Assembly (NCBI GenBank): GCA_027306755.1
Contig: DAHUZE010000089.1
Span: 1 to 60,710 of the forward strand
Reading direction: 5' to 3'
Origin: Acidimicrobiaceae bacterium
Lineage (GTDB): Bacteria > Actinomycetota > Acidimicrobiia > Acidimicrobiales > RAAP-2
DNA length: 60,710 nucleotides
Shown here: in pieces, positions 6,606-21,951 of the stretch
Layout of the letters: the number at the start of each line of letters is the position of its first letter
Position numbering within the stretch: the first letter of the stretch is position 1
Position numbers and translations under genes: made by a program
Notes under the pieces: model-generated
Seen by the model: only the letters and a program-made list of their open reading frames with translations
What the model was told of the DNA's origin: nothing
Database searches by the model: none

Positions 6606-7598
6606 ATGACGACCGCCGAGCCCGCTGCCGGACCGGCCGAGGCGCCGCCGGCCGAGGCCGCGATCCGAACGGTCCAGTTGACCAAGATCTACCCGGGGGC
6701 GGACTTCCGAGCGGTGGACGAGCTGGACCTCACGGTCGGGACCGGAGAGATCTTCGGCCTCCTTGGTCCGAACGGCGCAGGGAAGACGACCACGGCCGGC
6801 ATGCTGACCACCAGGGTCGTTCCCACGGCGGGGCAGGCGTACGTGGGAGGCATCGACGTCGTCGCCCACCCCACGCTGGCCAAGCAGATCCTGGGCATCG
6901 TCAGCCAGCAGAACACGCTCGATCGGCAGCTGACCGTCTGGGAGAACCTCTATTTCCACGGCCGGCTGTTCGGCATGGCCTCGAAGACCTCGCGACAGGA
7001 GGCCGACCGCCTCCTGGCGCAGTTCCAGCTCACCAAGTGGGCCAAGGCCTCCGTCTACGCGCTGAGCGGCGGGATGGCACAGCGGTTGATGGTGGCCCGC
7101 GCCATGTTCCACCGGCCGGCGGTCCTGTTCTTGGACGAGCCCACCGCGGGCCTGGACCCGCAGAGCCGCCTCGCTCTGTGGGACATCCTGGGGGAGCTCA
7201 ATGCCAGCGGCCAGACGATCCTGCTGACCACCCACTACATGGAGGAAGCCGACCAGCTCTGCCGGCGTGTGGCCATCATGGACCACGGGCGCATCCTGGC
7301 GTTGGGGACGCCAACCGAGCTCAAGCGGAGCGTGGGGGCGAACACCGTCGTGCGCCTCCACGCGGGCGGCGACCAGCTTCGCCTGGCCGAGCTTCTCGAG
7401 CGCACCGTGGACGGGGTCACGCGGACGCGGGTGACCGACGGGCGGGTCGAGCTCCACGTCCAGGGGGTGGCCGGAGTGCTCCCGCGCGTCATCGGCGAAG
7501 CGGACCGCGGCGGGTTCGACGTGCTGGACGTGTCGGTGGCGGAACCCAGCCTGGAGACGGTCTTCATCAGCCTCACCGGAAAGGAGCTGCGCGACTGA
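6606..7598 (+). CDS. ABC transporter ATP-binding protein (DrrA type)
   Basis: A 330-residue ATPase with Walker A GPNGAGKTT, Q-loop in SQQNTLDRQLTVWENL, signature LSGGMAQRLMVARAMFHRP, Walker B VLFLDEPTAGLDP, and the switch His in TTHYMEEAD. After residue 230 comes the extra C-terminal domain of DrrA-type drug or natural-product exporters. It pairs with the permease that starts inside its stop codon (TGATG). The substrate is unknown; a hydrophobic compound or lipid is likely. Confidence 0.93.
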   Translation: MTTAEPAAGPAEAPPAEAAIRTVQLTKIYPGADFRAVDELDLTVGTGEIFGLLGPNGAGKTTTAGMLTTRVVPTAGQAYVGGIDVVAHPTLAKQILGIVSQQNTLDRQLTVWENLYFHGRLFGMASKTSRQEADRLLAQFQLTKWAKASVYALSGGMAQRLMVARAMFHRPAVLFLDEPTAGLDPQSRLALWDILGELNASGQTILLTTHYMEEADQLCRRVAIMDHGRILALGTPTELKRSVGANTVVRLHAGGDQLRLAELLERTVDGVTRTRVTDGRVELHVQGVAGVLPRVIGEADRGGFDVLDVSVAEPSLETVFISLTGKELRD

Positions 7599-8497
7599 TG
7601 GCGGTCGAGACCGTTGCCGGGACGCAGGGTCATGGCGACCGTGGACAGCTGGCCGGCGCCGCGGGGAACCGCAGCGCCCTCGCGTCGAGCCGCACCGCCC
7701 TCGCAGCGCTCGTCCTGAGGGACCTGGTGGTGCTGCGCAAGAACTTCTGGGAGTTCGTCATCCGGACCCTCGTGCAGCCCTTCCTCTTGTGCTTCGTGTT
7801 CCTCTACGTCTTTCCCAAGATCGGGCAGGGCATCGGGGCCGGCGGGAGCGCAGCAGGCGAATCGGCCTTCGCCACCGTACTGGTGCCCGGTGTTGCCGGC
7901 ATCTCCATCATGTTCCAGGGCGTCCAGGCCGTGGCCCTGCAGATGGCCCAGGAGTTCGGCTTCACCCGTGAGATCGAAGACCGGGTGCAGGCTCCATGCC
8001 CCATCTGGCTGGTCGCCCTGTCCAAAGTCCTTTCAGGAGCGGTGCAAGGCCTGATCTCCGCGGCGATCGTTCTGCCGATCGCCTCGGTCGTCCACGCCGG
8101 CGGCGTGGAGGCCCATCTGGACCTCCACTGGTGGGTCATCTGCACCCTCGTCCCGCTCGCCTGCATCACCATGACGTCCCTCGGGCTCCTCCTCGGGACG
8201 TCCTTCGAGCCCCGCAACATCGGGCTCATGTTCGGCTTCGTGGTGCTGCCCATCACCTTCCTCGGCGGCACGTACTACCAGTGGACCCGCCTGGCCCCGG
8301 TGAAGATCGGCCCCTGGCACTGGCTGCAGACGGCGGTCCTGGTGAACCCCGTCATCTACGTCAACGAGGGCATGCGGGCGGCATTCACCAGCGCGTCGCA
8401 CATGCACCTGTACGTGGTCTACCCGGTGCTGGCCGGCTTCCTGGTGGCCTTCCTCGGGCTCGGCTTCCGCAACTTCCGCCGGCGCGTCCTGTCGTGA
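7598..8497 (+). CDS. ABC-2 type permease (DrrB type)
   Basis: A 299-residue permease with six predicted transmembrane helices (roughly residues 55-75, 92-115, 140-170, 178-205, 210-235, 265-290) in the ABC-2 fold. It contains FGFTREIEDRVQAPCPIW, matching the DrrB coupling segment, and the late FLGGTYYQWTRLAPV. Its ATG overlaps the ATPase stop as TGATG, so the two are co-translated and form one exporter. Confidence 0.93.
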   Translation: MAVETVAGTQGHGDRGQLAGAAGNRSALASSRTALAALVLRDLVVLRKNFWEFVIRTLVQPFLLCFVFLYVFPKIGQGIGAGGSAAGESAFATVLVPGVAGISIMFQGVQAVALQMAQEFGFTREIEDRVQAPCPIWLVALSKVLSGAVQGLISAAIVLPIASVVHAGGVEAHLDLHWWVICTLVPLACITMTSLGLLLGTSFEPRNIGLMFGFVVLPITFLGGTYYQWTRLAPVKIGPWHWLQTAVLVNPVIYVNEGMRAAFTSASHMHLYVVYPVLAGFLVAFLGLGFRNFRRRVLS

Positions 8498-8659
8498 GCT
8501 GAGCGGCGGCTCGGGTGCGGGCCGGCGGGCCCCCATGCCCGGCGGCCGCGCACGTCCAGGGGTGAGACCGCTACGGTTGGGTACCCATAGATCGGGATCC
8601 GACCACGCTGATGGCTCCGCGGGCGCGCGGCCTTGGGACCGAAGGGACGGTGTGCACAG

Positions 8660-9976
8660 ATGCCACCTGCCAGCGATGGAGATCAGGGCGAGGCGCAGGC
8701 TTCAGGGGTGCCGGCCGGCCGCACGGCACCGGGCACCGGCGGACGCGCCGATGCCGATGACCGCGAGCGGGGCCGCCTCCGGCAGGCGCTCCACGACGTC
8801 CGGCGCTTCACCGAGGCGCTTGCCGCCCCGCTGTCCGCCGAGGACCAGACGGTGCAGTCCATGCCCGATGCGAGCCCCACGAAGTGGCACCGGGCTCACA
8901 CCTCGTGGTTCTTCGAGACCTTCCTCCTCGAGCCGGATCTCCCCCGCTACCGGCCATTCCACCCGGAGTTCGGCTACCTCTTCAACTCGTACTACGAGAC
9001 CGTAGGTGCACGGCACCCCCGGCCCGAGCGGGGGCTCGTGTCCCGCCCGGGCACCGAGGAGGTGGGCAGGTACCGGCGGCACGTGGACGCCGCCATGGAG
9101 GACCTCCTCGACCGGGCGTGCACTCCCGAGACGGCGGCCCTGGTCGAGCTGGGCATCCACCACGAGCAGCAGCACCAGGAGCTCCTGCTTATGGACATCA
9201 AGCATGTGCTCTCGTGCAACCCGCTCCACCCCGCCTACACCCCGGGAGGACCGTCCGGCTCGCCGCGGGAGCCCCGGAAAGCGGGTTGGATCGAGCACGG
9301 AGGGGGCCTCGTGGAAGTGGGCCACGCCGGTCCGGCCTTCTCGTTCGACAACGAGTCGCCCCGCCACTGCGCACACCTGGTCCCGTTCGCCCTGGCCGAC
9401 CGCCTCGTCACCTGTGCCGAGTGGAATGAGTTCATCGACGACGGTGGCTACGCACGCCCGGAGCTCTGGCTGTCCGAAGGTTGGGCCGCGGTGCAGGCAA
9501 CGGGATGGAGGGCGCCCCTGTACTGGACGGACGACCATCTCTTCACCCTCGCCGGCGAGCTGCCCGTCGATCCGGCATCGCCCGTCGTCCACGTGAGCTA
9601 CTTCGAAGCCGACGCCTTCGCCCGCTGGGCGGGGTGCCGCCTGCCGACCGAGGCAGAGTGGGAGGCGATCGCGGCGGCCGATGCCGGGTACCCCGGTGCC
9701 GCGCCGCACGACCTGCACCCGTCGTCGGCCGACGGCGGGCAGTTCCACGGCGAGGTGTGGCAGTGGACGTCCAGCAGCTACGGCCCCTACCCCGGCTACC
9801 GGCCCGCCGCCGGCGCGGTGGGTGAGTACAACGGCAAATTCATGGTGAACCAGCAGGTGCTGCGGGGCAGCGCCTGCATCACGCCCCCCACCCACCGCCG
9901 CACGACCTATCGCAACTTCTTTCCGGCCGGCGCCCGCTGGGCCTACAGCGGCCTCCGGTTGGCTCGGGATCTGTAG
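8660..9976 (+). CDS. egtB: Ergothioneine sulfoxide synthase EgtB
   Basis: A 438-residue protein with an N-terminal DinB-like four-helix domain carrying the iron ligands (KWHRAHTSWFFE and HHEQQHQELLLMDIKH, the HxxxH pair) and a C-terminal formylglycine-generating-enzyme-like domain (CRLPTEAEWE, GEVWQWTSSSYGPYPGYRP, RRTTYRNFFP). EgtB is a non-heme iron enzyme that joins hercynine to cysteine or γ-glutamylcysteine with O2. ATG 8660 is used; no family residues precede it. Its TAG overlaps the egtD start by one base. egtA, egtC and egtE are not in the window. Confidence 0.95.
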   Translation: MPPASDGDQGEAQASGVPAGRTAPGTGGRADADDRERGRLRQALHDVRRFTEALAAPLSAEDQTVQSMPDASPTKWHRAHTSWFFETFLLEPDLPRYRPFHPEFGYLFNSYYETVGARHPRPERGLVSRPGTEEVGRYRRHVDAAMEDLLDRACTPETAALVELGIHHEQQHQELLLMDIKHVLSCNPLHPAYTPGGPSGSPREPRKAGWIEHGGGLVEVGHAGPAFSFDNESPRHCAHLVPFALADRLVTCAEWNEFIDDGGYARPELWLSEGWAAVQATGWRAPLYWTDDHLFTLAGELPVDPASPVVHVSYFEADAFARWAGCRLPTEAEWEAIAAADAGYPGAAPHDLHPSSADGGQFHGEVWQWTSSSYGPYPGYRPAAGAVGEYNGKFMVNQQVLRGSACITPPTHRRTTYRNFFPAGARWAYSGLRLARDL

Positions 9977-10959
9977 TGCCGGCGTCCACCGCCGTCACCG
10001 TCGACATCCATCTGGACGAGCGCGATCTGCGCGCCGCCCTGGAGCGCGACGTCCGTTCCGGGCTGAGCTCGTCACCCAAGCGGATCCCACCCACGTGGTT
10101 CTACGACGAGGAGGGCAGCCGCCTCTTCGAGGAGATCACCGCGCTTCCCGAGTACTACCCCACCAGGGCCGAGCGGGCGCTGCTGGAGCGGCACGCGCAC
10201 GAAGTAGCCGATGCAGCCCGTGCCGACACGCTGGTCGAGCTGGGTGCAGGCTCATGCGACAAGACGCGCCTGCTACTCGACGCGGTCGAGCAAGCCGGCA
10301 CGCTGTCGAGCTACGTCCCGTTCGATGTGAGCGCGGAGTTCCTCCGCGACGCCGCCGGCTCGATCGCCGACCAGTACCCGCAAGTCCAGGTCCACGCCGT
10401 CGTTGGCGACTTCTTGGTCCACCTTGACCGGATCCCGACCGCGGGACGCCGGCTGGTGGCCTTCCTCGGAGGGACCATCGGCAACCTGGCCCCCGCGCAG
10501 CGGAAGCGCTTCCTGGATGCCCTGCGCTCCACCATGGCGCACACCGACGCGTTGCTGCTCGGCACGGACCTGGTGAAGGACCGTGGCCGGATCATCGCCG
10601 CATACGACGACGCTGCGGGGGTGACGGCCCGCTTCAACCGCAACGTGCTGAACGTGATGAACCAGGCGCTGGGGGCGACCTTCGACCCGGACCGCTTCGA
10701 ACACGTGGTGCGTTGGGATGAACGGAACCAATGGATCGAGATGCGCCTCCGGGCCACCGAGCCGCTGACCGTCGCCATCCAACAGCTCGCCATGTCCGTC
10801 GAATTCGAGTCGGGCGAGGAGCTACGCACCGAGATCAGCGCCAAGTTCACGCCTGCGGGGATCGCCGCCGAGCTCGGTGCCGCGGGTTTCGCCGTGGACC
10901 GCCAATGGGGAGCGGACGAGGGCGAGTTCCTCCTGACCCTCGCCCGCCCTCTGGGCTGA
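9976..10959 (+). CDS. egtD: L-histidine Nα-methyltransferase EgtD
   Basis: A 327-residue SAM-dependent enzyme that trimethylates histidine to hercynine, the first step of ergothioneine synthesis. It shows PPTWFYDEEGSRLFEEIT.LPEYYPTRAE, the SAM loop ELGAGSCDKTRLLL, FLGGTIGNL, LGTDLVKD and the late ISAKFTPAGI. The length matches the family. It starts with GTG overlapping the last base of the egtB stop. It converges with the cytochrome b gene 8 bases downstream. Confidence 0.97.
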   Translation: MPASTAVTVDIHLDERDLRAALERDVRSGLSSSPKRIPPTWFYDEEGSRLFEEITALPEYYPTRAERALLERHAHEVADAARADTLVELGAGSCDKTRLLLDAVEQAGTLSSYVPFDVSAEFLRDAAGSIADQYPQVQVHAVVGDFLVHLDRIPTAGRRLVAFLGGTIGNLAPAQRKRFLDALRSTMAHTDALLLGTDLVKDRGRIIAAYDDAAGVTARFNRNVLNVMNQALGATFDPDRFEHVVRWDERNQWIEMRLRATEPLTVAIQQLAMSVEFESGEELRTEISAKFTPAGIAAELGAAGFAVDRQWGADEGEFLLTLARPLG

Positions 10960-13037: not shown

Positions 13038-13421
13038 CTACTGCTCGCGTAGGCCCCCGAGACCCAGGGAGCCCTGCCCCCCGCCCTCACTGCCCCGGCC
13101 CTCGCTGCCCCCCTCCCCACCGGATTGCTCTTCGATCTCGGTCAACGGGCCGTCGGTGAACAGGTCGGTGCGCATGTGCCGGTCCAGCACGGGGTCATGG
13201 CGCCGCAACCACTCCAGGAGCATCATCGCGTGCTCCTTCTCCTCGTCCCGGTTGTGGGCGAGAACGGCCCCCAGCTCGGAGTCCGAGGTCGCGTCCACCC
13301 GCTGGTCGTACCAGTCGGCCGCCTCCAGCTCCTCCTGCAACGACGTCAGCGCGCGGTGCCGGTCGATCGTCTCGGGTGACAGCAGCGCTTCGCGCTCGTG
13401 CAGTCCCTCGCTGTTGGCCAT
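13038..13421 (-). CDS. Encapsulated ferritin (EncFtn-like) with cargo peptide
   Basis: A 127-residue protein closely matching EncFtn: LSPETIDRHRALTSLQEELEAADWYDQR, then HNRDEEKEHAMMLLEWLRRHDP. The Glu (EELEA), Trp (DWY) and E-K-E-H residues are those of the ferroxidase centre built at the EncFtn dimer interface. After a Gly/Ser/Glu-rich linker the protein ends GSLGLGGLREQ, matching the encapsulin-loading consensus of the LGIGSL type. It should oxidise Fe(II) and be packed into an encapsulin shell, but no shell gene is in the window. ATG 13421 has AGGAGG 5 bases upstream. Confidence 0.9.
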   Translation of the reverse strand: MANSEGLHEREALLSPETIDRHRALTSLQEELEAADWYDQRVDATSDSELGAVLAHNRDEEKEHAMMLLEWLRRHDPVLDRHMRTDLFTDGPLTEIEEQSGGEGGSEGRGSEGGGQGSLGLGGLREQ

Positions 13422-13452: not shown

Positions 13453-13701
13453 TTACTGCTGGTAGTGCTCGACCGTGGAGGGCGGGCGGGTGACCGCCTC
13501 ATCCGGGTCGCGCCCGGCGTGGCGCAGGGCCCGCCGCTGGCGCAGCACGTCCCACAGCTGGTCCAGGGTCACCTGCAGCTGGTCCATCCGTTCCCGCTCG
13601 CCGGCCGAGAGCCCCTCGACGGCTTGCGCGTGGGACTCCTCCAACTGGCGCTCCTCGTCTGCCAGCTCCCCGATGCGATGGATGATCTCCTCGTCGTTCA
13701 T
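13453..13701 (-). CDS. DUF2630 family protein
   Basis: An 82-residue, highly charged helical protein starting MNDEEIIHRIGELADEERQLEES, with RMDQLQVTLDQLWDVLRQRRALRHAGRDPDEA, the typical DUF2630 pattern. Its role is unknown; it looks like a small coiled-coil dimer. It lies between lon and the encapsulated ferritin, all on the minus strand with gaps of 13 and 31 bases, and so is probably co-transcribed with them. A GTG directly precedes the ATG. Confidence 0.88.
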   Translation of the reverse strand: MNDEEIIHRIGELADEERQLEESHAQAVEGLSAGERERMDQLQVTLDQLWDVLRQRRALRHAGRDPDEAVTRPPSTVEHYQQ

Positions 13702-13714
13702 CACCGCGATCCTG

Positions 13715-16069
13715 TCACGCGACCGCCGGGAGCTGCCCGGCGGCGGCGGCCTCTTGGAGCGCCGGGGCCAGGACCTCGGCCACCGTCGAGGCGAGATGGA
13801 ACGTCATCTGGTCGCGGACCTCCTCGGGCACGTCCTCCAGGTCCGGACCGTTGCGAGCCGGCAGGACCACTTCGGTGAGCCCGGCGCGGTGCGCGGCCAG
13901 GACCTTCTGCTTCACCCCTCCGATCGGCAGCACACGTCCCTGGAGAGTCACCTCGCCCGTCATACCCACCGTGGGCCGTGCCGGCACACCGAGCAGCAGG
14001 CTCACCAAAGCCGTCGTCATGGTGACTCCGGCCGAAGGTCCGTCCTTGGGCACGGCACCGGCCGGCACATGCACGTGGAACCGCTTCCCGGCCATCGCCA
14101 CGGGATCCAGACCCAGCTCCGCGGCATGCGACCGCACGAAGGACAGGGCGATCTCCGCGGACTCCTTCATCACGTCACCGAGCTGGCCGGTGAGGGTCAG
14201 GCCCTCGGGACCGTCCGACATCGACGCCTCCACGAAGAGCACGTCCCCTCCGGCCCCGGTCACTGCCAGGCCAGTGGCCACACCAGGGACGCCCACCCGG
14301 TCCGCCGCTTCGAAGAAGAACCGGGGCCGGCCCAGCCACGTGCGGACGGAGCTGCCCTCCACGACGACCGGGGCGGTAACTTGGCCGGCGGCTACACGCG
14401 TCGCAACCTTGCGGGCCAGGCGCCCGAGCTCCCGCTCCAGGTTCCGCACGCCGGCTTCCCGGGTGTAGTCGCCGACCACGGCACGAAGGGCGCCGTCGGT
14501 CACCTCCAGCTCGCCTTCCGTGAGCGCCGCGCGCTCCTGCTGGCGGGGCAGCAGGTGGTGGCGGGCGATGGAGACCTTCTCGGCCTCGGTGTAGCCGTCC
14601 AGCCGGATCACCTCCATCCGGTCCAGCAGCGGGCCGGGAATGGTGTCGATCACGTTGGCGGTGGCGATGAACAGCACATGGGAGAGGTCCAGGTCCACCT
14701 CCAGGTAGTGGTCGCGGAACGTGTGGTTCTGCGCGGGGTCCAAGACCTCGAGCAGAGCGGAGGAGGGATCACCGCGGTAGTCCGCCCCCACCTTGTCCAC
14801 CTCGTCCAAGAGCAGGACCGGGTTCATGGTCCCGGCCTCGCGCAGGGCTCGCACCATTCGGCCCGGCTGGGCGCCCACGTACGTGCGACGGTGGCCCCGG
14901 ATCTCCGCCTCGTCCCGGACGCCGCCCAGTGCCACCCGGACGAACGAGCGGCCGAGGGCGCGCGCCACCGACTCGCCGAGCGAGGTCTTCCCCACGCCCG
15001 GCGGCCCAACCAAGGCCAGGATGGCTCCGGCACCGTGACCGCCCACCGGCACGAGCCCCCGCTCGGCCTGGAGCTTGCGCACTGCCAGGTGCTCCAGGAT
15101 CCGCTCCTTCACGTCCCCCAGTCCGTCGTGGTCCTCGTCCAGGATCTCGGCCGCCTGTGCGACGTCGAGCCGGTCCTCGGACTCCACGTCCCAGGGCAGC
15201 TCCAGGACGGTGTCGAGCCAGGTGCGGATCCACCCGTTCTCGGGGCTCTGGTCGCTGGTCCGCTCCAGCCGGTCGATCTCACGCCCGACTGCGGCCTGTA
15301 CCTTGTCGGGGAGAGACCGGCCTTCGATCCGCGCCCGGTAATCGTCGGGGTCCACGTCCCCTTCCGTGCGGCTCAGCTCACCGAGCTCCTTGCGGATGGC
15401 CTCCAGCTGCCGGCGGAGGAGGAACTCGCGCTGGGTGCGCTCCATCCCGTCCTCCACGTCGCTCTTTATGCGCTCACGCAGCGTCAGGTCCGCAAGCGTG
15501 TCTCGCGCCCATCCCAGCACCAGGCGCAGGCGGCCTTCCACGTCCAGGGTCTCGAGAACCTCCACCTTCTGGGCCAGCGTCAGGTCCGGCGAGTAGCCGG
15601 CCACGTCGGCCAGGCGCCCCGGGTCGGTGACGTCGCGCAGCTGGGCGGCGATCCGCCCCGCGCCGCGCTGCAGCAGGATGTTCTCCAGCACGGCCCGGTA
15701 CTCGCGGGCGAGCTCGGTGGCGGCCTGCGACGGATCCTCGTCTTCCAGCACCTCGGCCTCGACCCATAGGGCCTGGCCCGTCCCGGGCACGCCCGTCCCG
15801 ATGACCGCGCGCTGGCCTCCCCGGACGACGATCGCCGAGAGCCCACCTGGCAGCTCACCCCGCTCGGTGATCTCCGAGATCACGCCGACGGTGGCATAGC
15901 GGCCCTCGATGTGGGGCACGAGCAGCAGCTTTCCCCCGGCGGACTCGGCCGCGTCCGCGGCGACGCGGGCGTCGTCGGACTCGAGCGCCATCGTGAAGAC
16001 CATGCCGGGCAACATCACGCCCGAGGAGAGGGGAAGCAAGGGAAGGGTCAGGCGTTCCAACGTGGGCAT
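13715..16069 (-). CDS. lon: ATP-dependent protease Lon
   Basis: A 784-residue LonA. An N-terminal substrate-binding (LAN) domain opens PTLERLTLPLLPLSSGVMLPGM. The AAA+ module has Walker A GPPGVGKT and Walker B VLLLDEVDK plus GDPSSALLEVLDPAQNHTF. The protease domain has the catalytic Ser in KDGPSAGVTM and the Lys in GGVKQKVLAAHRAG. Lon degrades damaged and regulatory proteins. ATG 16069 has GGAG directly before it, which is tight, but the family start is here. The upstream gap to merR is 68 bases. Confidence 0.96.
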   Translation of the reverse strand: MPTLERLTLPLLPLSSGVMLPGMVFTMALESDDARVAADAAESAGGKLLLVPHIEGRYATVGVISEITERGELPGGLSAIVVRGGQRAVIGTGVPGTGQALWVEAEVLEDEDPSQAATELAREYRAVLENILLQRGAGRIAAQLRDVTDPGRLADVAGYSPDLTLAQKVEVLETLDVEGRLRLVLGWARDTLADLTLRERIKSDVEDGMERTQREFLLRRQLEAIRKELGELSRTEGDVDPDDYRARIEGRSLPDKVQAAVGREIDRLERTSDQSPENGWIRTWLDTVLELPWDVESEDRLDVAQAAEILDEDHDGLGDVKERILEHLAVRKLQAERGLVPVGGHGAGAILALVGPPGVGKTSLGESVARALGRSFVRVALGGVRDEAEIRGHRRTYVGAQPGRMVRALREAGTMNPVLLLDEVDKVGADYRGDPSSALLEVLDPAQNHTFRDHYLEVDLDLSHVLFIATANVIDTIPGPLLDRMEVIRLDGYTEAEKVSIARHHLLPRQQERAALTEGELEVTDGALRAVVGDYTREAGVRNLERELGRLARKVATRVAAGQVTAPVVVEGSSVRTWLGRPRFFFEAADRVGVPGVATGLAVTGAGGDVLFVEASMSDGPEGLTLTGQLGDVMKESAEIALSFVRSHAAELGLDPVAMAGKRFHVHVPAGAVPKDGPSAGVTMTTALVSLLLGVPARPTVGMTGEVTLQGRVLPIGGVKQKVLAAHRAGLTEVVLPARNGPDLEDVPEEVRDQMTFHLASTVAEVLAPALQEAAAAGQLPAVA

Positions 16070-16137: not shown

Positions 16138-16953
16138 CTATTCCGCCGGCTCTCTCTCCGCCCGTCCGCCCGCCCGTCCGCCCGTACCTGGCGCCCAGGC
16201 TCCCGCCCGTCGGGCCAGGTAGTCGCCCAACCGGCGCCGGATCTCCTCCTCCAAGGCCAAGCCGACCTCGGCGGAGGTCACCTGGACGGCCAGGGGGCGC
16301 AGCGACGAGACCAGTTCGGAAAGGGCCCGGGCCCGGCCGGCCGGCATCGGGTCGGCCATGGCCTCCACCACGTGATCCTCGACCAGCCCCACGAAGAGCC
16401 GGGCCAGCGCGGCGGCCTCCGATCTCAGGGTGCGGGCGGCCTCCAGGACGGCGCCCAGCGGCACCCCGGCTCCCACCAGCAGCCGGCCCACCTCGAGCAT
16501 GGGGGGATCGGCCACCCGGAACCCAGCCGGACCGGCCGGCTCCAGGATCCCGGCGCTCACCGCCTGGTCCACCAGGTCGGTGGCATCGGCGCCGAACAGC
16601 GCAACCAAGTCGGCGGCCGTCACGGTCGCCTCCTCGCGGCCGGACGAAGGGGCCACCATCGCGGCCTCCAGGCCCAGCACGGCCGCCACGTCCTGGCCCC
16701 GCTCCCACGCGGCCAGCAGCTCGGCGATGTTGGCCTGGCTGTACCCCCGGTCCAGCAGCGAGGCGATGAGCCGAAGCCGGCCCAGGTGCATCCCCGAGTA
16801 AACCGCGACCCGACCTGTCCGGCGGGGGCGGGGCAAGAGACCCCGGTCCTGGTAGGCGCGGACGTTGCGAACGGTCGTGCCCGCAGCGTGCGCCAGCTCG
16901 TCGATGCGGAAGCTCGGCCCTGGCTGCCCATCCGGCTCAGTTGACGATGACAT
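16138..16953 (-). CDS. MerR family transcriptional regulator
   Basis: A 271-residue protein with an N-terminal MerR winged helix-turn-helix (FRIDELAHAAGTTVRNVRAYQDRGLLPRPRRTGRVAVYSGMHLGRLRLIASLLDRGYSQANIAELL) and a long Ala/Leu-rich C-terminal effector domain with no metal-binding cysteines, so it probably senses an organic compound. It is divergent from the diiron oxygenase operon. TACCAT lies 6 bases before its ATG, predicting a leaderless mRNA, inside the shared palindrome. It most likely regulates itself and that operon. Confidence 0.9.
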   Translation of the reverse strand: MSSSTEPDGQPGPSFRIDELAHAAGTTVRNVRAYQDRGLLPRPRRTGRVAVYSGMHLGRLRLIASLLDRGYSQANIAELLAAWERGQDVAAVLGLEAAMVAPSSGREEATVTAADLVALFGADATDLVDQAVSAGILEPAGPAGFRVADPPMLEVGRLLVGAGVPLGAVLEAARTLRSEAAALARLFVGLVEDHVVEAMADPMPAGRARALSELVSSLRPLAVQVTSAEVGLALEEEIRRRLGDYLARRAGAWAPGTGGRAGGRAEREPAE

Positions 16954-16969
16954 CGCTCAATGGTACATT
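16941..16969 (+). promoter_or_regulatory. Promoter of the diiron oxygenase operon (TTGACG-N17-TACATT)
   Basis: TTGACG (16941-16946) and TACATT (16964-16969) are separated by 17 bp, giving a start near 16976 and a leader of about 30 bases to ATG 17007. The -35 lies inside the divergent merR coding start. Confidence 0.7.
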
Positions 16970-16977
16970 CACTATTG
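16958..16977. promoter_or_regulatory. Candidate operator in the merR / diiron oxygenase gap
   Basis: Inverted repeat CAATGGT-N6-ACTATTG (6 of 7 pairs). It covers the -10 of the plus-strand promoter (16964-16969) and the minus-strand TACCAT (16960-16965) of merR, so one bound protein could control both. MerR is the obvious candidate; binding is inferred. Confidence 0.6.
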
Positions 16978-17006
16978 GGAACGGAGTAGTCAACATGGAG
17001 GTTGCC

Positions 17007-18008
17007 ATGTCCTTCGCCACCCGTTCCGAGCCTGTCTGGCGAGCGATCGGGGACGCCGAGCCGCACCGGAGCGACCGGACGTTCGAGGAGCTGTGCCGTC
17101 GCCTGAACCGCCAGTCCGTCGACAAGCACTTCGACGCCTACGAGGACGTGGACTGGGATGCCCCGGACCATGACGTCCGCAGCGACGACCCCCGGTGGGA
17201 GCTCGCGGACTTCGATCCCGTCGCCACCACGGAGTGGTACCGGTCCCAGCCTGCGCAGGACCGGGCCCGGCTCGGCCTCCAGCGGGTGGCCATGACCATG
17301 CGCACGGGCTGGGAATTCGAGAACGTCCTGCAGCGCGGCCTGCTGGCCCGTGCCTTCTGGTTGCGTGAGGGCGGACCCGAATTCCGCTACCTCCACCACG
17401 AGGTGGTCGAGGAGTCCCAGCACACGATGATGTTCCAGGAGCTGGTGCACCGCGCCGCCATGCCGGCACCGGGCATGCCCGCGCTCGTCAAGCACGCGGC
17501 CGAGCGGTTGGTCGTCCCCCTGGCGCGCCGCTCGCCCGTCCTCTTCTTCTTCTTCGTGCTGGGCGGCGAGGAGCCCATCGACGTCGTGCAGCGGCGGCGC
17601 CTCCGGGCGGGCATCGCGCACCCGCTCCTGGAGCGCATCATCCGGATCCATGTGACCGAGGAAGCCAGGCATCGTTCGTTCGCCAAGCACTACCTCGAGC
17701 ACCAGGTCCCCCACTTGCGCCCCCTGCGCCGCGGGGCCCTGGCGATCGTGGTGCCGTTGCTCCTGGGAACCATGGTGCGCCTGATGCTCGGAACGCCGCG
17801 TAGCTTCAGCCGGCCCAACGGCGTTCCCCGAGCCGTCGTGCGGGCAGCATGGCGGGCCCCCGAGCAGCGCGCACTTCGAGCCGACTCGGTGGCCGGAGTG
17901 CGCCGGCTGTGCGTCCAGACCGGGCTCGTCCCCCGGTGGGCGCGCCCGGTCTGGCGGGCCCTGGGCATCTGGGCCGGCCCGGGCGTGGACGGGCCGGGCT
18001 GCCGGTGA
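17007..18008 (+). CDS. AurF-like diiron oxygenase
   Basis: A 333-residue ferritin-like protein with the full ligand set of the AurF family: Glu in GWEFENVLQRG, ExxH in VEESQHTMMF, and HxxxExxH in RIHVTEEARHRSF. AurF oxidises aryl amines with O2; most relatives are uncharacterised and act on amines or lipids. ATG 17007 is chosen because GGAGG lies 6 bases upstream; ATG 16995 would leave no binding site. It is the first gene of a three-gene operon and overlaps the next as GTGA. Its substrate is probably processed further by the monooxygenase and SDR. Confidence 0.85.
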   Translation: MSFATRSEPVWRAIGDAEPHRSDRTFEELCRRLNRQSVDKHFDAYEDVDWDAPDHDVRSDDPRWELADFDPVATTEWYRSQPAQDRARLGLQRVAMTMRTGWEFENVLQRGLLARAFWLREGGPEFRYLHHEVVEESQHTMMFQELVHRAAMPAPGMPALVKHAAERLVVPLARRSPVLFFFFVLGGEEPIDVVQRRRLRAGIAHPLLERIIRIHVTEEARHRSFAKHYLEHQVPHLRPLRRGALAIVVPLLLGTMVRLMLGTPRSFSRPNGVPRAVVRAAWRAPEQRALRADSVAGVRRLCVQTGLVPRWARPVWRALGIWAGPGVDGPGCR

Positions 18009-19615
18009 GCGTCGGGGCACCCCCGGACGAGCGGTTCCGGATCGCCATCGTGGGCGCCGGCTTCGCCGGGCTCGGCCTGGCGATCCGCCTGCGACAACGT
18101 GGAACAGCAGACTTCGTCGTCCTCGAGCGCGGCAACCGGGTGGGCGGGACCTGGCGGGACAACACGTACCCCGGTGCTGCATGCGACGTGCCATCGAACC
18201 TGTACTCGTTCTCCTTCGCCCCCAACCCGTTGTGGTCTCGCTCGTTCTCCGGACAGCCCGAGATCGAGGCCTACCTCGAGTCCTGCGCAACCCGATTCGA
18301 CCTGATGCGCCACGTGCGCCTGGGAGAAGAGGTCCAGCAGGCCACGTGGAACGAAGGCGGCTGCTGCTGGGACATCACGACGGGCAGCGGCCGGCTCCGG
18401 GCGACCGTGCTCGTCCACGCGCGCGGCCCGCTGAGCGAGCCCAACCTCCCGGACCTGCCGGGGCTCGACACCTTTTCCGGGACCGTCTTCCACTCGGCCC
18501 GGTGGCGCCACGACCACGACCTCGCCGGCGAGCGGGTGGCGGTGGTGGGGACCGGGGCGTCGGCGGTCCAGTTCGTGCCCCGCATCCAGCCGATTGCGGG
18601 TCGGGTGCACGTGTTCCAGCGGACGCCGCCATGGGTCATGCCCCGGCGGGACCGTGCCCTGAGCCCCTTGGAGCACGGGGTGTACCGCAGGGTCCCGGCG
18701 TTCCAGCTGGCCGCTCGAGCCGCGGTCTACTGGGGCCGCGAGGCGTACGTGCTCGGCTTCGTGGGCGAGCCCCGGCGGAGGTGGCGGCGGGCACGGGCCG
18801 CGGCGCAGCTCGCCCGCCGGCACATGGAGCGGCAAGTGCCCGACGCCGATCTCCGCGCCCGCCTCACCCCCGCCTACGAGCTCGGCTGCAAGCGCGTCCT
18901 CATCTCGAGCGACTACTACCCCGCCCTGTGCCAGCCCAACGTCGAGCTCGTCACCGACCGCATCACCAGGGTGACCCGGCGGGGCATCGAGACCGCAGAC
19001 GGCGTGGAGCGACCGGTGGACTCGATCGTGTTCGGGACCGGGTTCGACGTCACGGGCACCGCCTCCGCCGGCCAGACCGTCGGGTGCGGCGGGCAGACCC
19101 TGGCCGAGGCATGGCGCGACCGGGTGGCCGCCTACAAGGGCATGACCGTCCCGGGCTTCCCCAACCTCTTCCTGCTGGTCGGGCCGAACACCGGGCTCGG
19201 CCACTCCTCGATCGTGTTCATGATCGAGTCCCAGGTCCGCTACGTGCTGGGCGCACTGGACGCCATGTCGGCGGCGCGAGCCGAGCGCATGGAGGTCCGG
19301 CCCCGCGCGCTGGCCGCCTGGTGCGAGGAGATCGAGCGGCGAAACCGCAACACCGTCTGGACCCAGGGGGGCTGCGACAGCTGGTACCTGGACGACGCCG
19401 GCCGCAACGTGGCCCTGTGGCCGGGATCCAGCTGGAGCTACCGCCGGGCGACGCGGCGGTTCGACACCTACGCCTATGCCCTGCTGGCGGGCCGTCGCGC
19501 CGCACCCGGCGGCCTGCCGGGCCCGGCGCGTGCCGGCAGGCCGCCGGCCGCGCATCTCTCGGCAGCGGGACACCCGATGGCGGCCGCAGGGACCGACGGG
19601 GCCGCTCAGCCGTGA
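18005..19615 (+). CDS. FAD-dependent monooxygenase, Baeyer-Villiger type
   Basis: A 536-residue flavoprotein. FAD-binding GAGFAG occurs at the N-terminus with GGTWRDNTYPGAACDVPSNLYSFSF, an NADPH-binding VVGTGASAVQ near residue 180, and the Baeyer-Villiger fingerprint FSGTVFHSARW (FxGxxxHxxxW) between them. It also has the late FATGF-like VFGTGFDV and GPNTGLGHSSIVFMIE. Such enzymes insert oxygen into ketones or hydroxylate amines and lipids. GTG 18005 overlaps the previous stop; its own stop overlaps the SDR start, both as GTGA. Confidence 0.92.
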   Translation: MSVGAPPDERFRIAIVGAGFAGLGLAIRLRQRGTADFVVLERGNRVGGTWRDNTYPGAACDVPSNLYSFSFAPNPLWSRSFSGQPEIEAYLESCATRFDLMRHVRLGEEVQQATWNEGGCCWDITTGSGRLRATVLVHARGPLSEPNLPDLPGLDTFSGTVFHSARWRHDHDLAGERVAVVGTGASAVQFVPRIQPIAGRVHVFQRTPPWVMPRRDRALSPLEHGVYRRVPAFQLAARAAVYWGREAYVLGFVGEPRRRWRRARAAAQLARRHMERQVPDADLRARLTPAYELGCKRVLISSDYYPALCQPNVELVTDRITRVTRRGIETADGVERPVDSIVFGTGFDVTGTASAGQTVGCGGQTLAEAWRDRVAAYKGMTVPGFPNLFLLVGPNTGLGHSSIVFMIESQVRYVLGALDAMSAARAERMEVRPRALAAWCEEIERRNRNTVWTQGGCDSWYLDDAGRNVALWPGSSWSYRRATRRFDTYAYALLAGRRAAPGGLPGPARAGRPPAAHLSAAGHPMAAAGTDGAAQP

Positions 19616-20445
19616 GCCGCGCTGGGGACGTCGCAGCAGGCTGCTCGCTCCTGGGATCCGGCCGGCGGGCCGTGGTGACCGGGGCCGGCAGCGGGATCGG
19701 GCGGGCCACGGCCCTGGCCCTGGCGGCCAGGGGCATGCACGTTGTGGCCGTGGACGTGGACGGGCCCGCGGCCGAGTCGGTGGCCTCGGAGACCGGGGGG
19801 GAGGCTCGGACGGTGGATGTCGCCGACGGCGCGGCGATGGACGCGCTGGCCGCCGCCCTGATGGACGAGTCGGGGGCTCCCGACGTCGTGGTCAACAACG
19901 CCGGCGTGGGCCTGACCGGCCACTTCCTGGACACGACCGAGGCGGACTGGCGGTGGATCCTGGAGATCAACCTCGGAGGCGTCATCAACGGGTGCCGCGC
20001 ATTCGGTCCGGCCCTGCTGCAGAGCGGCCGCGGCCACGTGGTGAACCTCTCGTCTGGCCTGGCCTTCGCTCCCCGGGCGACCGAGCCGGCCTATGTCACG
20101 ACCAAGGCGGCCGTTCTGGCCCTGAGCCAGTGCCTGCGAGCGGACTGGGGGCCCAGGGGGGTGGGCGTGTCGGCCATCTGCCCCGGGGTGATCCGCACCG
20201 CCATCGCCTCGAGCACCCGGTTTCGGGGCGAGCGGGCGACCGCCGAGTCGATCACGCGGGTCCGGCGGCTGTTCTCCCGCGGCCACCCGCCCGAGCTGGT
20301 GGCCGAGGCGATCATCGACGCCGTGACGCGCAACCGGCCCGTGGTGCCCGTGGGCATCGAGGCTCGGGTGGGATGGCTGCTCCGGGGGGTGGTCCCGGGG
20401 CGCCTGGCCGATCGGGCCGCTCGCGCCAGCCTCCTCGGCATCTGA
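19612..20445 (+). CDS. Short-chain dehydrogenase/reductase
   Basis: A 277-residue classical SDR with the cofactor loop VTGAGSGIGRATALAL, NNAG at about residue 95, catalytic Ser in NLSSG, and YVTTK (Tyr-x3-Lys). DVD after β2 suggests NAD(H). It has a C-terminal extension (WLLRGVVPGRLADRAAR) seen in SDRs that act on lipophilic alcohols or ketones. GTG 19612 overlaps the monooxygenase stop. In context it would supply the ketone or aldehyde to the monooxygenase, or reduce its product. Confidence 0.92.
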   Translation: MSRAGDVAAGCSLLGSGRRAVVTGAGSGIGRATALALAARGMHVVAVDVDGPAAESVASETGGEARTVDVADGAAMDALAAALMDESGAPDVVVNNAGVGLTGHFLDTTEADWRWILEINLGGVINGCRAFGPALLQSGRGHVVNLSSGLAFAPRATEPAYVTTKAAVLALSQCLRADWGPRGVGVSAICPGVIRTAIASSTRFRGERATAESITRVRRLFSRGHPPELVAEAIIDAVTRNRPVVPVGIEARVGWLLRGVVPGRLADRAARASLLGI

Positions 20446-21354: not shown

Positions 21355-21531
21355 CGTCGCTCCTGGTCAGCGTGATCGTCGGTACAGCGATGCCGGAGCC
21401 CATGCTGCGTCCACCCGATCCCGTTCCAATGGTAGCCCCTAGCGATCGGCATATCCACTGCAACTACCTCGCCTGGACTCGCTACCGCCTCCGTGGAGGA
21501 GCAGCCGGCAGCGGGCGGCCAAGATGGGGCC

Positions 21532-21951
21532 ATGACCGTCGTGCGCATCAATGCCATCACCGTCGCCCCAGGGCAGGGCGACGAGCTTGCTCGCCGTTTC
21601 GCCAGCCGGGCTGGAGCCGTGGACCAGGCAGATGGCTTCATGGGCTTCGAGCTCCTCCGGCCCGCCGACGAGCGGGACACCTGGCTGGTGGTGACCCGCT
21701 GGCGGGACGAGGCCGCCTTCCAGGCCTGGGCGCAGTCTCCCGCCTTCGCACACGGCCACCGGGGACCGGAGGCGGGTGGTGGGGAGCGCACCGATCCGGC
21801 CGCCCGGCACCGCGGCGACGGGGGTGCGGCGGGGCACCACAGCGGCGACGGGGGTGCGGCGGGGCACCACGGCGGCAGCGAGGCGCCACCGGTCGCCATG
21901 CACAGCGAGCTGTGGAGCTACGACGTGGTCGACCTCGAAAGAGGCAGGTAG
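21532..21951 (+). CDS. MhuD/IsdG-like heme-degrading monooxygenase with His-rich insert
   Basis: A 139-residue ABM-fold protein that starts MTVVRINAITVAPGQGDELARRF and continues GFMGFELLRPADERDTWLVVTRW, closely following mycobacterial MhuD. Asn7 and Trp66 fall exactly at the MhuD catalytic positions, and His74/His76 (AHGHR) sit where the heme ligand His75 is expected. Between this His and the last strand (LWSYDVVDLE) is an insert of about 40 residues with two copies of GDGGAAGHHS/G. CAAGAT lies 6 bases before ATG 21532, suggesting a leaderless transcript. It overlaps the convergent gene by 34 bases. Confidence 0.85.
   Translation: MTVVRINAITVAPGQGDELARRFASRAGAVDQADGFMGFELLRPADERDTWLVVTRWRDEAAFQAWAQSPAFAHGHRGPEAGGGERTDPAARHRGDGGAAGHHSGDGGAAGHHGGSEAPPVAMHSELWSYDVVDLERGR
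21810..21871. repeat. Two 30-bp tandem units within the heme-degrading gene
   Basis: The unit GGCGACGGGGGTGCGGCGGG plus GCACCACAGC is present twice in tandem with only the last bases differing. It is in frame and encodes SGDGGAAGHH. It looks like a recent duplication. Confidence 0.85.

Follow-up and report, generated by a model that had tools for sequence, protein, structure and literature searches.

A MerR-linked operon of an AurF-family diiron oxygenase, a Baeyer-Villiger-like monooxygenase and a short-chain dehydrogenase in an Acidimicrobiaceae genome, and its predicted operator

The stretch of DNA analysed here (the window; 60,710 nucleotides) is contig 64 of the genome assembly of an Acidimicrobiaceae bacterium, which comprises 2.55 Mb in 108 contigs and is 82% complete. 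At positions 16138-20445 of the window, a gene for a MerR-family regulator is divergent from an operon encoding an AurF-family diiron oxygenase, a flavin-dependent monooxygenase (FMO) resembling type I Baeyer-Villiger monooxygenases (BVMO) and a short-chain dehydrogenase/reductase (SDR). A conserved element in the promoter of this operon is, in our prediction, the operator of the MerR lineage. The features are as follows.

16138-16953, minus strand: MerR-family regulator, 271 aa, Pfam PF13411
16941-16946, plus strand: -35 element TTGACG (TTGACA in three congeners)
16951-16962, no strand assigned: proposed MerR operator CATCGCTCAATG, consensus CAnT-N4-AnTG, within the 17-bp spacer between -35 and -10
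16964-16969, plus strand: -10 element TACATT, from the promoter search and congener comparison
16997-17001, plus strand: probable Shine-Dalgarno sequence GGAGG, the same in three congeners
17007-18008, plus strand: AurF-family (PF11583) diiron oxygenase, alternative start at 16995
18005-19615, plus strand: type I BVMO-like FAD monooxygenase, GTG start inside a GTGA overlap
19612-20445, plus strand: SDR of the PRK05855 subfamily (hydrolase-SDR, EphD-like), GTG start inside a GTGA overlap

The coordinates bear out what an initial annotation of this DNA had read from it, namely four genes on these strands and two 4-base GTGA overlaps, one between the diiron and FMO genes (18005-18008) and one between the FMO and SDR genes (19612-19615), and the Pfam families match. 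The ATG at 17007 is a likelier start of the diiron gene than 16995 because of the position of GGAGG in the window and in three other genomes of the genus (the congeners).

The promoter TTGACG-17-TACATT (16941-16969) is the sole sigma-70-like one in 16800-17100 (shuffles: mean 0.0, standard deviation 0.1), in agreement with the single operon promoter of the initial annotation. In the window, as in all three congeners, the spacer measures 17 bp. The conserved element is a 12-bp dyad, CAnT-N4-AnTG, that lies between the -35 and -10 elements; the window copy deviates from it at one arm position. The element common to the compared regions between MerR gene and operon is TTGACAnTnnCATTGTnCAnTGnTACAnT. 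Allowing up to three mismatches, it was matched eight times in 61 genomes, once in the genome of the window, while the reversed control was not matched at all. All eight matches adjoin a MerR homologue or head an operon containing one. Five of them had helped to define the element and three are new (G040, G034 and G015), the MerR at the G040 site being only 36% identical to that of the window. With a slightly relaxed consensus and up to four mismatches, 24 of 44 non-redundant MerR upstream regions contain a site as compared with 5 of 300 random windows (460 bp, drawn from the same loci and possibly including sites themselves), a comparison that is partly circular in that some of the 44 regions defined the consensus. 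The other 20 regions have no site.

A related signal appears in a family designated f84 (genus g250), where GCCAGTGTTCACTGGC, a 7+2+7 dyad with the same CAGT-N4-ACTG core, was found in the promoters of three of the four loci read. The exact 16-bp sequence has seven matches in 396 genomes, all of them in f84, 23-52 bp upstream of FMO genes and between divergent MerR and FMO (BVMO) genes. Four of the seven played no part in defining the site, and two of nine f84 loci do not have it. At one mismatch this site is about as frequent as its reversed control, and only exact matches are informative. The TTGACA-17 promoter of the window was not seen at the f84 sites. Within the window, the bare 12-bp dyad at one mismatch gives 6 matches as compared with 15.8 expected; therefore the dyad has value as a signal only within its promoter. 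Within individual sequences the operator arms show no covariation (pairing of 0.608, mean after row shuffling 0.645); the palindrome thus belongs to the column consensus. On balance, we consider it very probable that CAnT-N4-AnTG is the operator of this MerR lineage, as predicted from its conservation.

Two other structures at the promoter were rejected. A DNA hairpin was not better than shuffles (z of -0.38). The initial annotation had placed MerR control on a 20-bp palindrome covering the -10 elements of both directions; the best dyad of that length (16958-16977) has 7 of 10 pairs, a value equalled or exceeded in 488 of 1000 dinucleotide shuffles of 16900-17060, and it is not conserved, the 20-mers of the three congeners at this position (aligned by eye on the -10 element) having 5, 4 and 1 pairs. 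Only the operon-side -10 was found. The idea of MerR control itself is retained through the conserved operator-like element, with binding as a prediction, but not through that palindrome.

The regulator belongs to the MerR family by its match to PF13411 (MerR_1; 9e-18, 64.6 bits as compared with a cut-off of 21.6), and its winged helix comprises residues 14-81. For the C-terminal part of the window protein, about 180 residues long, Pfam gives no family at E<=1. We aligned 17 relatives and modelled the structure of the window protein (mean predicted local distance difference test score 86.9, predicted template-modelling score 0.62). In a Foldseek search with the model, MerR proteins ranked first, and the adenylyl cyclase Rv1264 with its regulatory domain was among the top 50, a weak fold match (E of 0.003-0.016, template-modelling score by query 0.35-0.40). 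The regulatory domain of Rv1264 was reportedly crystallised with a bound fatty acid. A sequence profile search between the C-terminal part and Rv1264 gave no link at E<=10, and hhalign of this part against a neighbouring cyclase returned a probability of 0.7%. An Rv1264-like lipid sensor in the C-terminal part may thus be taken from the model as a lead only. An adenylyl cyclase encoded at 7595-8692 (minus strand) of locus L222 matches Rv1264 over residues 2-335 (4e-14) and adjoins a MerR gene whose product is 51% identical to the window MerR.

How might this MerR act on the operon? According to the available part of one source (PMC1526738), known MerR-type regulators bind palindromes between -35 and -10 elements with spacers of 19-20 bp, and one case with a 17-bp spacer is given two readings, either a destroyed site or genes that are repressed and derepressed but never activated. 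The palindrome of the window is likewise placed between the two elements, but these are 17 bp apart and not the 19-20 bp of a classic MerR activator. Since this length is shared with the three congeners and the element is conserved, we prefer repression over distortion: the arrangement suggests that the MerR represses, and that the classic distortion mechanism is less likely. The called start codon of the MerR gene (16951-16953) overlaps the operator; therefore autoregulation is plausible as well.

The four genes stand together beyond the window. Among 13 genomes of the genus, four (that of the window and three of the other 12) have the MerR gene and diiron-FMO-SDR in identical order, so that the conserved co-occurrence, whose absence would have refuted the initial annotation, is present. 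These four are also the genomes with a strong diiron match; weaker matches over the PF11583 cut-off raise the number to 6 of 13. Rearranged versions of the set occur in the order and the phylum. A search of 397 genomes of the order gave diiron matches at E<=1e-40 in 41. We fetched 40 loci, some of them cut by contig ends, and counted neighbours within 2.5 kb: MerR is near the diiron gene in 9 and FMO in 5. Among 80 named loci, SDR is found in 51, FMO in 21, MerR in 17 and a hydrolase in 3 (L092, L097 and L099), and 20 have both FMO and SDR. Of these 20, 16 are Actinomadura by title, with the genes in the order TetR, diiron, FMO, SDR; the TetR assignment comes from the Pfam match of one cluster member. 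The suggestion that the combination may be new is thus only partly right: diiron-FMO-SDR stands behind TetR in these 16 of 80 loci, and a MerR gene with BVMO-hydrolase-SDR, without the diiron gene, is present in f84.

The diiron tree (95 rows) unites the window with its three congeners in a clade (100/99), nested in a set of 32 rows (99/99) to which all 17 rows labelled MerR-linked and 15 others belong; the remaining 63 rows (99/99) include all Actinomadura rows. Two loci titled as a Bifidobacterium breve metagenome-assembled genome (L109 and L114) have MerR/diiron sequences close to L110 and L115, and L114 groups with uncultured actinobacteria in this tree; both are probably mislabelled. The FMO tree (35 rows) again supports the window clade (100/100), which it places away from the FMOs of Actinomadura and of L099; its deeper forks are unresolved. 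The SDRs differ in kind as well. The window SDR scores best with PRK05855 (303.7 bits, next model 166.8), and that of Spirillospora albida (L130), a member of the same family as Actinomadura and the sole TetR-group SDR tested, with PRK05650 (189.0, as compared with 179.8 for PRK05855). The diiron-BVMO-SDR combination thus probably came together on more than one occasion. One might then ask if the genes are chance neighbours, that is, separately evolving oxidoreductases in accidental adjacency. BVMO-type genes are indeed common in the phylum (matches at E<=1e-110 in 58 of 396 genomes), and the diiron-linked FMOs form no single clade. Overlapping genes, synteny within a four-genome clade supported in both trees and a conserved promoter-operator speak so clearly to the contrary that we regard accidental adjacency as extremely improbable.

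The diiron protein is a member of PF11583, the AurF model (4.9e-77, 259.3 bits as compared with a gathering cut-off of 29.6). Its ligand positions, numbered from the start at 16995, are E109, E140, H143, E192, H219, E223 and H226. The pattern (E; ExxH; E; H; ExxH) is invariant in a 15-row alignment, and in the 95-row alignment E109, E140, H143, E192 and H226 are found in 95 of 95 rows and H219 and E223 in 94, with one gap. The ligand list of AzoC has the same seven positions (PMC6783550, as far as that text was available). Among solved folds, Foldseek with the model of the protein ranks CmlI first and AurF second, followed by acyl-ACP desaturases and R2 proteins; the best E is 2e-3, with no match at E<=0.001. 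Identity to the solved AurF and CmlI structures is 15-18%. A phmmer search gave no solved relative at E<=1, and a profile search gave AurF at an E of 0.019. In the parts of the cited literature at hand, AurF relatives are mostly N-oxidising, with the halogenase CylC in addition.

These features bring in N-oxygenation, in which the AurF-type enzyme would oxidise a lipophilic amine to the nitroso or nitro compound and the flavoprotein and SDR would process the oxidised or keto product. Family membership, the seven conserved ligands and the ranks of CmlI and AurF all fit it, and so does a gene of the nitronate-monooxygenase family (PF03060; 6144-7094, minus strand, of L117) that directly follows the MerR gene in a divergent MerR/diiron locus, as would suit an amine-to-nitro route. 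The 3 His/4 carboxylate ligand set, which the protein has, is described as largely unique to N-oxygenases in an excerpt of PMC12101540. From the same excerpt, however, the second-shell residues of AurF are Asp135 and Asp226, and both are replaced by Glu here (Glu139 in 95 of 95 rows, Glu222 in 94 with one gap), while AurF-like CylC acts on unactivated carbon. The neighbouring BVMO, SDR, hydrolase, P450 and fatty acid desaturase genes would also be more typical of aliphatic chemistry. We therefore hold N-oxygenation to be unlikely, although it deserves serious attention, and favour C-H oxygenation by the diiron enzyme as the inferred activity.

The flavoprotein matches Pyr_redox_3 (7.2e-19) and FMO-like (3.2e-15) in Pfam and has two GxGxx[GA] motifs, GAGFAG and GTGASA. 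The BVMO1 fingerprint [GA]GxWx4[FY]P[GM]x3D is present as GGTWRDNTYPGAACD, as in type I BVMOs. The FxGxxxHxxxW fingerprint reported by the initial annotation is confirmed as FSGTVFHSARW, and both motifs are present in all 25 aligned FMOs. The strict BVMO2 form, FxGx3Hx3W[PD] in the accessible part of PMC9044951, is found in 20 of the 25; the three congeners end in W-D. Among solved proteins, the nearest relatives are steroid, phenylacetone and cyclohexanone monooxygenases. We predict a type I BVMO-like enzyme with ketone-to-ester activity.

The third enzyme is a classical SDR (adh_short, 1.8e-46; motifs TGAGSGIG, NNAG and YVTTK). It does not reach the whole-protein cut-off of PRK05855 (455), as its match covers the SDR half only. 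A full hydrolase-SDR fusion, which scores 743.5 bits with PRK05855, is encoded in L185 of the same family, with a 94% identical copy in L186. The operon there stands behind the operator and consists of the fusion, a MerR gene (product 43-45% identical to the window's) and an ABC1-kinase-like gene, and an FMO gene lies nearby on the opposite strand. Hydrolases also accompany diiron genes: L057 and L097 have hydrolase-diiron with a divergent MerR gene, L058 and L092 have SDR-hydrolase-diiron, L099 has a TetR gene and SDR-hydrolase-diiron-FMO with 4-base overlaps among the last three, and in Streptomyces SAT1 (L171) genes for an alpha/beta hydrolase and an FAD oxidoreductase precede the diiron gene. 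In f84 the divergent MerR gene and the order FMO-hydrolase-SDR were read in four loci, with the diiron gene absent, and matches to MerR, FMO, hydrolase and SDR are found in all nine loci delivered by the FMO search.

As available in part, PMC6304351 gives the order of subterminal oxidation as oxygenase, alcohol dehydrogenase, BVMO and esterase. Because the oxygenase, SDR, BVMO and hydrolase match this order, our leading, still tentative interpretation is a dedicated, probably lipid-responsive catabolic operon that follows subterminal-oxidation logic under a MerR repressor. A MerR dimer on CAnT-N4-AnTG between -35 and -10 would repress the operon, and induction would be release, not distortion as in classic MerR with 19-20-bp spacers; the inducer would probably be the substrate or a lipid related to it. 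The AurF-type enzyme would oxygenate an aliphatic position, the SDR would convert the alcohol to a ketone, the BVMO would turn the ketone into an ester by oxygen insertion, and an alpha/beta hydrolase, which is in the operon of some relatives but not here, would cleave it. A lipid-like, lipophilic substrate is plausible from the sequences. To this extent the pathway for a lipophilic amine, alcohol or ketone that was proposed initially is plausible, with amine oxidation as a serious rival. The initial annotation mentions neither the hydrolase found in relatives nor the EphD-like kind of the SDR.

Beyond the N-oxygenase-like ligand set and fold ranking, several observations weigh against a catabolic operon of this kind. 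The window operon contains no hydrolase and so is not a complete subterminal-oxidation cassette; the L099 hydrolase has matches (E<=1e-15) in 12 of 13 genus genomes, and the window's own genome, 82% complete, is the one without. The window BVMO departs from the strict BVMO2 fingerprint in having W-R instead of W-[PD]. In 26 of the 40 order loci, MerR, FMO, SDR and hydrolase are all missing near the diiron gene, and among four annotated neighbourhoods from a plasmid collection, neither a BVMO nor an SDR gene adjoins it in those of Tsukamurella (L169) and Rhodococcus (L170).

The same enzymes could also serve anabolic lipid tailoring, the set making keto- or ester-type lipids instead of degrading them. 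The SDR falls in the EphD-like PRK05855 family, and EphD is linked to ketomycolate synthesis in the accessible part of PMC7998700. A fatty acid desaturase gene follows the diiron gene in L052, a locus with MerR, and a gene of the same cluster does so in L101; in L061, another diiron locus with MerR, the next gene encodes a P450. A set present in 4 of 13 genus genomes, several of them incomplete, would however fit an accessory trait better, and the regulator is local, with one site found in the genome. We consider anabolic tailoring quite improbable and retain the catabolic operon as the preferred reading. Its broadest form, in which the large EExxH clade of AurF-like enzymes consists of aliphatic C-H hydroxylases that open soluble, modular lipid-cleaving pathways, with MerR repressing from CAnT-N4-AnTG in the 17-bp spacer and sensing the lipid by a C-terminal Rv1264-like domain, is rather improbable as a whole.

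Several neighbouring genes were recorded along the way. Other relatives of the MerR sit with an M24 peptidase, a membrane protein of about 600 residues, an SDR or a hydrolase-SDR. The membrane-type protein (L218, 8302-10128; L217, 920-2794; L229, 2311-4194; L220, 3584-4633, cut) is encoded close to MerR genes of this lineage, together with M24 peptidase genes, SDR genes or both. It gave no Pfam match in any of these copies, the cut one included, and the three full copies share the His motifs WHID, NPAHW and WGPTH; it is possibly an unrecognised membrane enzyme. A Lon gene (13715-16015, minus strand) adjoins the MerR gene in the window, as in L049 and L051 but not in L050, and just downstream of it are a DUF2630 gene (13456-13701, minus strand) and an EncFtn-like gene of the encapsulated-ferritin type (13041-13421, minus strand). 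About 1 kb downstream of the operon is an ABM-domain gene (21493-21951, plus strand); genes of the same cluster follow the SDR gene in the three congeners, with one gene between in L050. At 8708-10956 (plus strand), an FGE-sulfatase-domain gene stands before one for a histidine-specific methyltransferase, an arrangement like that of egtB-egtD in ergothioneine biosynthesis.

All parts of the locus are of known kinds. Among the matches listed in the literature search, no title or abstract concerned an AurF-type module of this composition or this MerR operator, which is weak evidence that the combination has not been described. AurF-type genes are frequent in the order, and their pairing with BVMO, SDR and hydrolase genes indicates a concrete, testable substrate class. 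A MerR lineage with a readable operator would make its targets predictable in genomes and is a possible sensor part for hydrophobic compounds.

Compared with subterminal oxidation, the window shares an oxygenase, an SDR-type dehydrogenase and a BVMO in one operon, with the hydrolase in relatives. It differs in having an AurF-type diiron enzyme instead of the usual alkane hydroxylases, in having no hydrolase and in its MerR control. The mymA operon of Mycobacterium tuberculosis comprises the BVMO MymA, the LipR hydrolase, an SDR, AdhD and others, and its regulator VirS is of the AraC type. By this content it has no AurF-type gene, a regulator of another family and the hydrolase inside the operon, whereas the window has a MerR regulator and no hydrolase. 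Shared with the window are the BVMO with SDR and the lipid connection of MymA, the latter from the accessible part of PMC9044951. The arylamine N-oxygenases AurF, CmlI and AzoC share PF11583, the seven ligand positions and the ferritin-like fold with the diiron protein. They have DExxH and HxxDExxH in place of EExxH and HxxEExxH, and the 15-18% identity to solved AurF and CmlI and the neighbouring BVMO, SDR and hydrolase genes set the present protein further apart. The window SDR resembles by score the SDR half of the EphD/PRK05855 fusions, and in the same family such fusions are found together with this MerR lineage and its operator, whereas the window SDR is unfused and accompanied by diiron and BVMO genes. 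Finally, the classic regulators MerR, CueR and BmrR share with the window MerR the winged helix and a palindrome between -35 and -10; the differences lie in the spacer of 17 bp instead of 19-20 bp, in the short CAnT-N4-AnTG dyad and in the long C-terminal part without a Pfam match.

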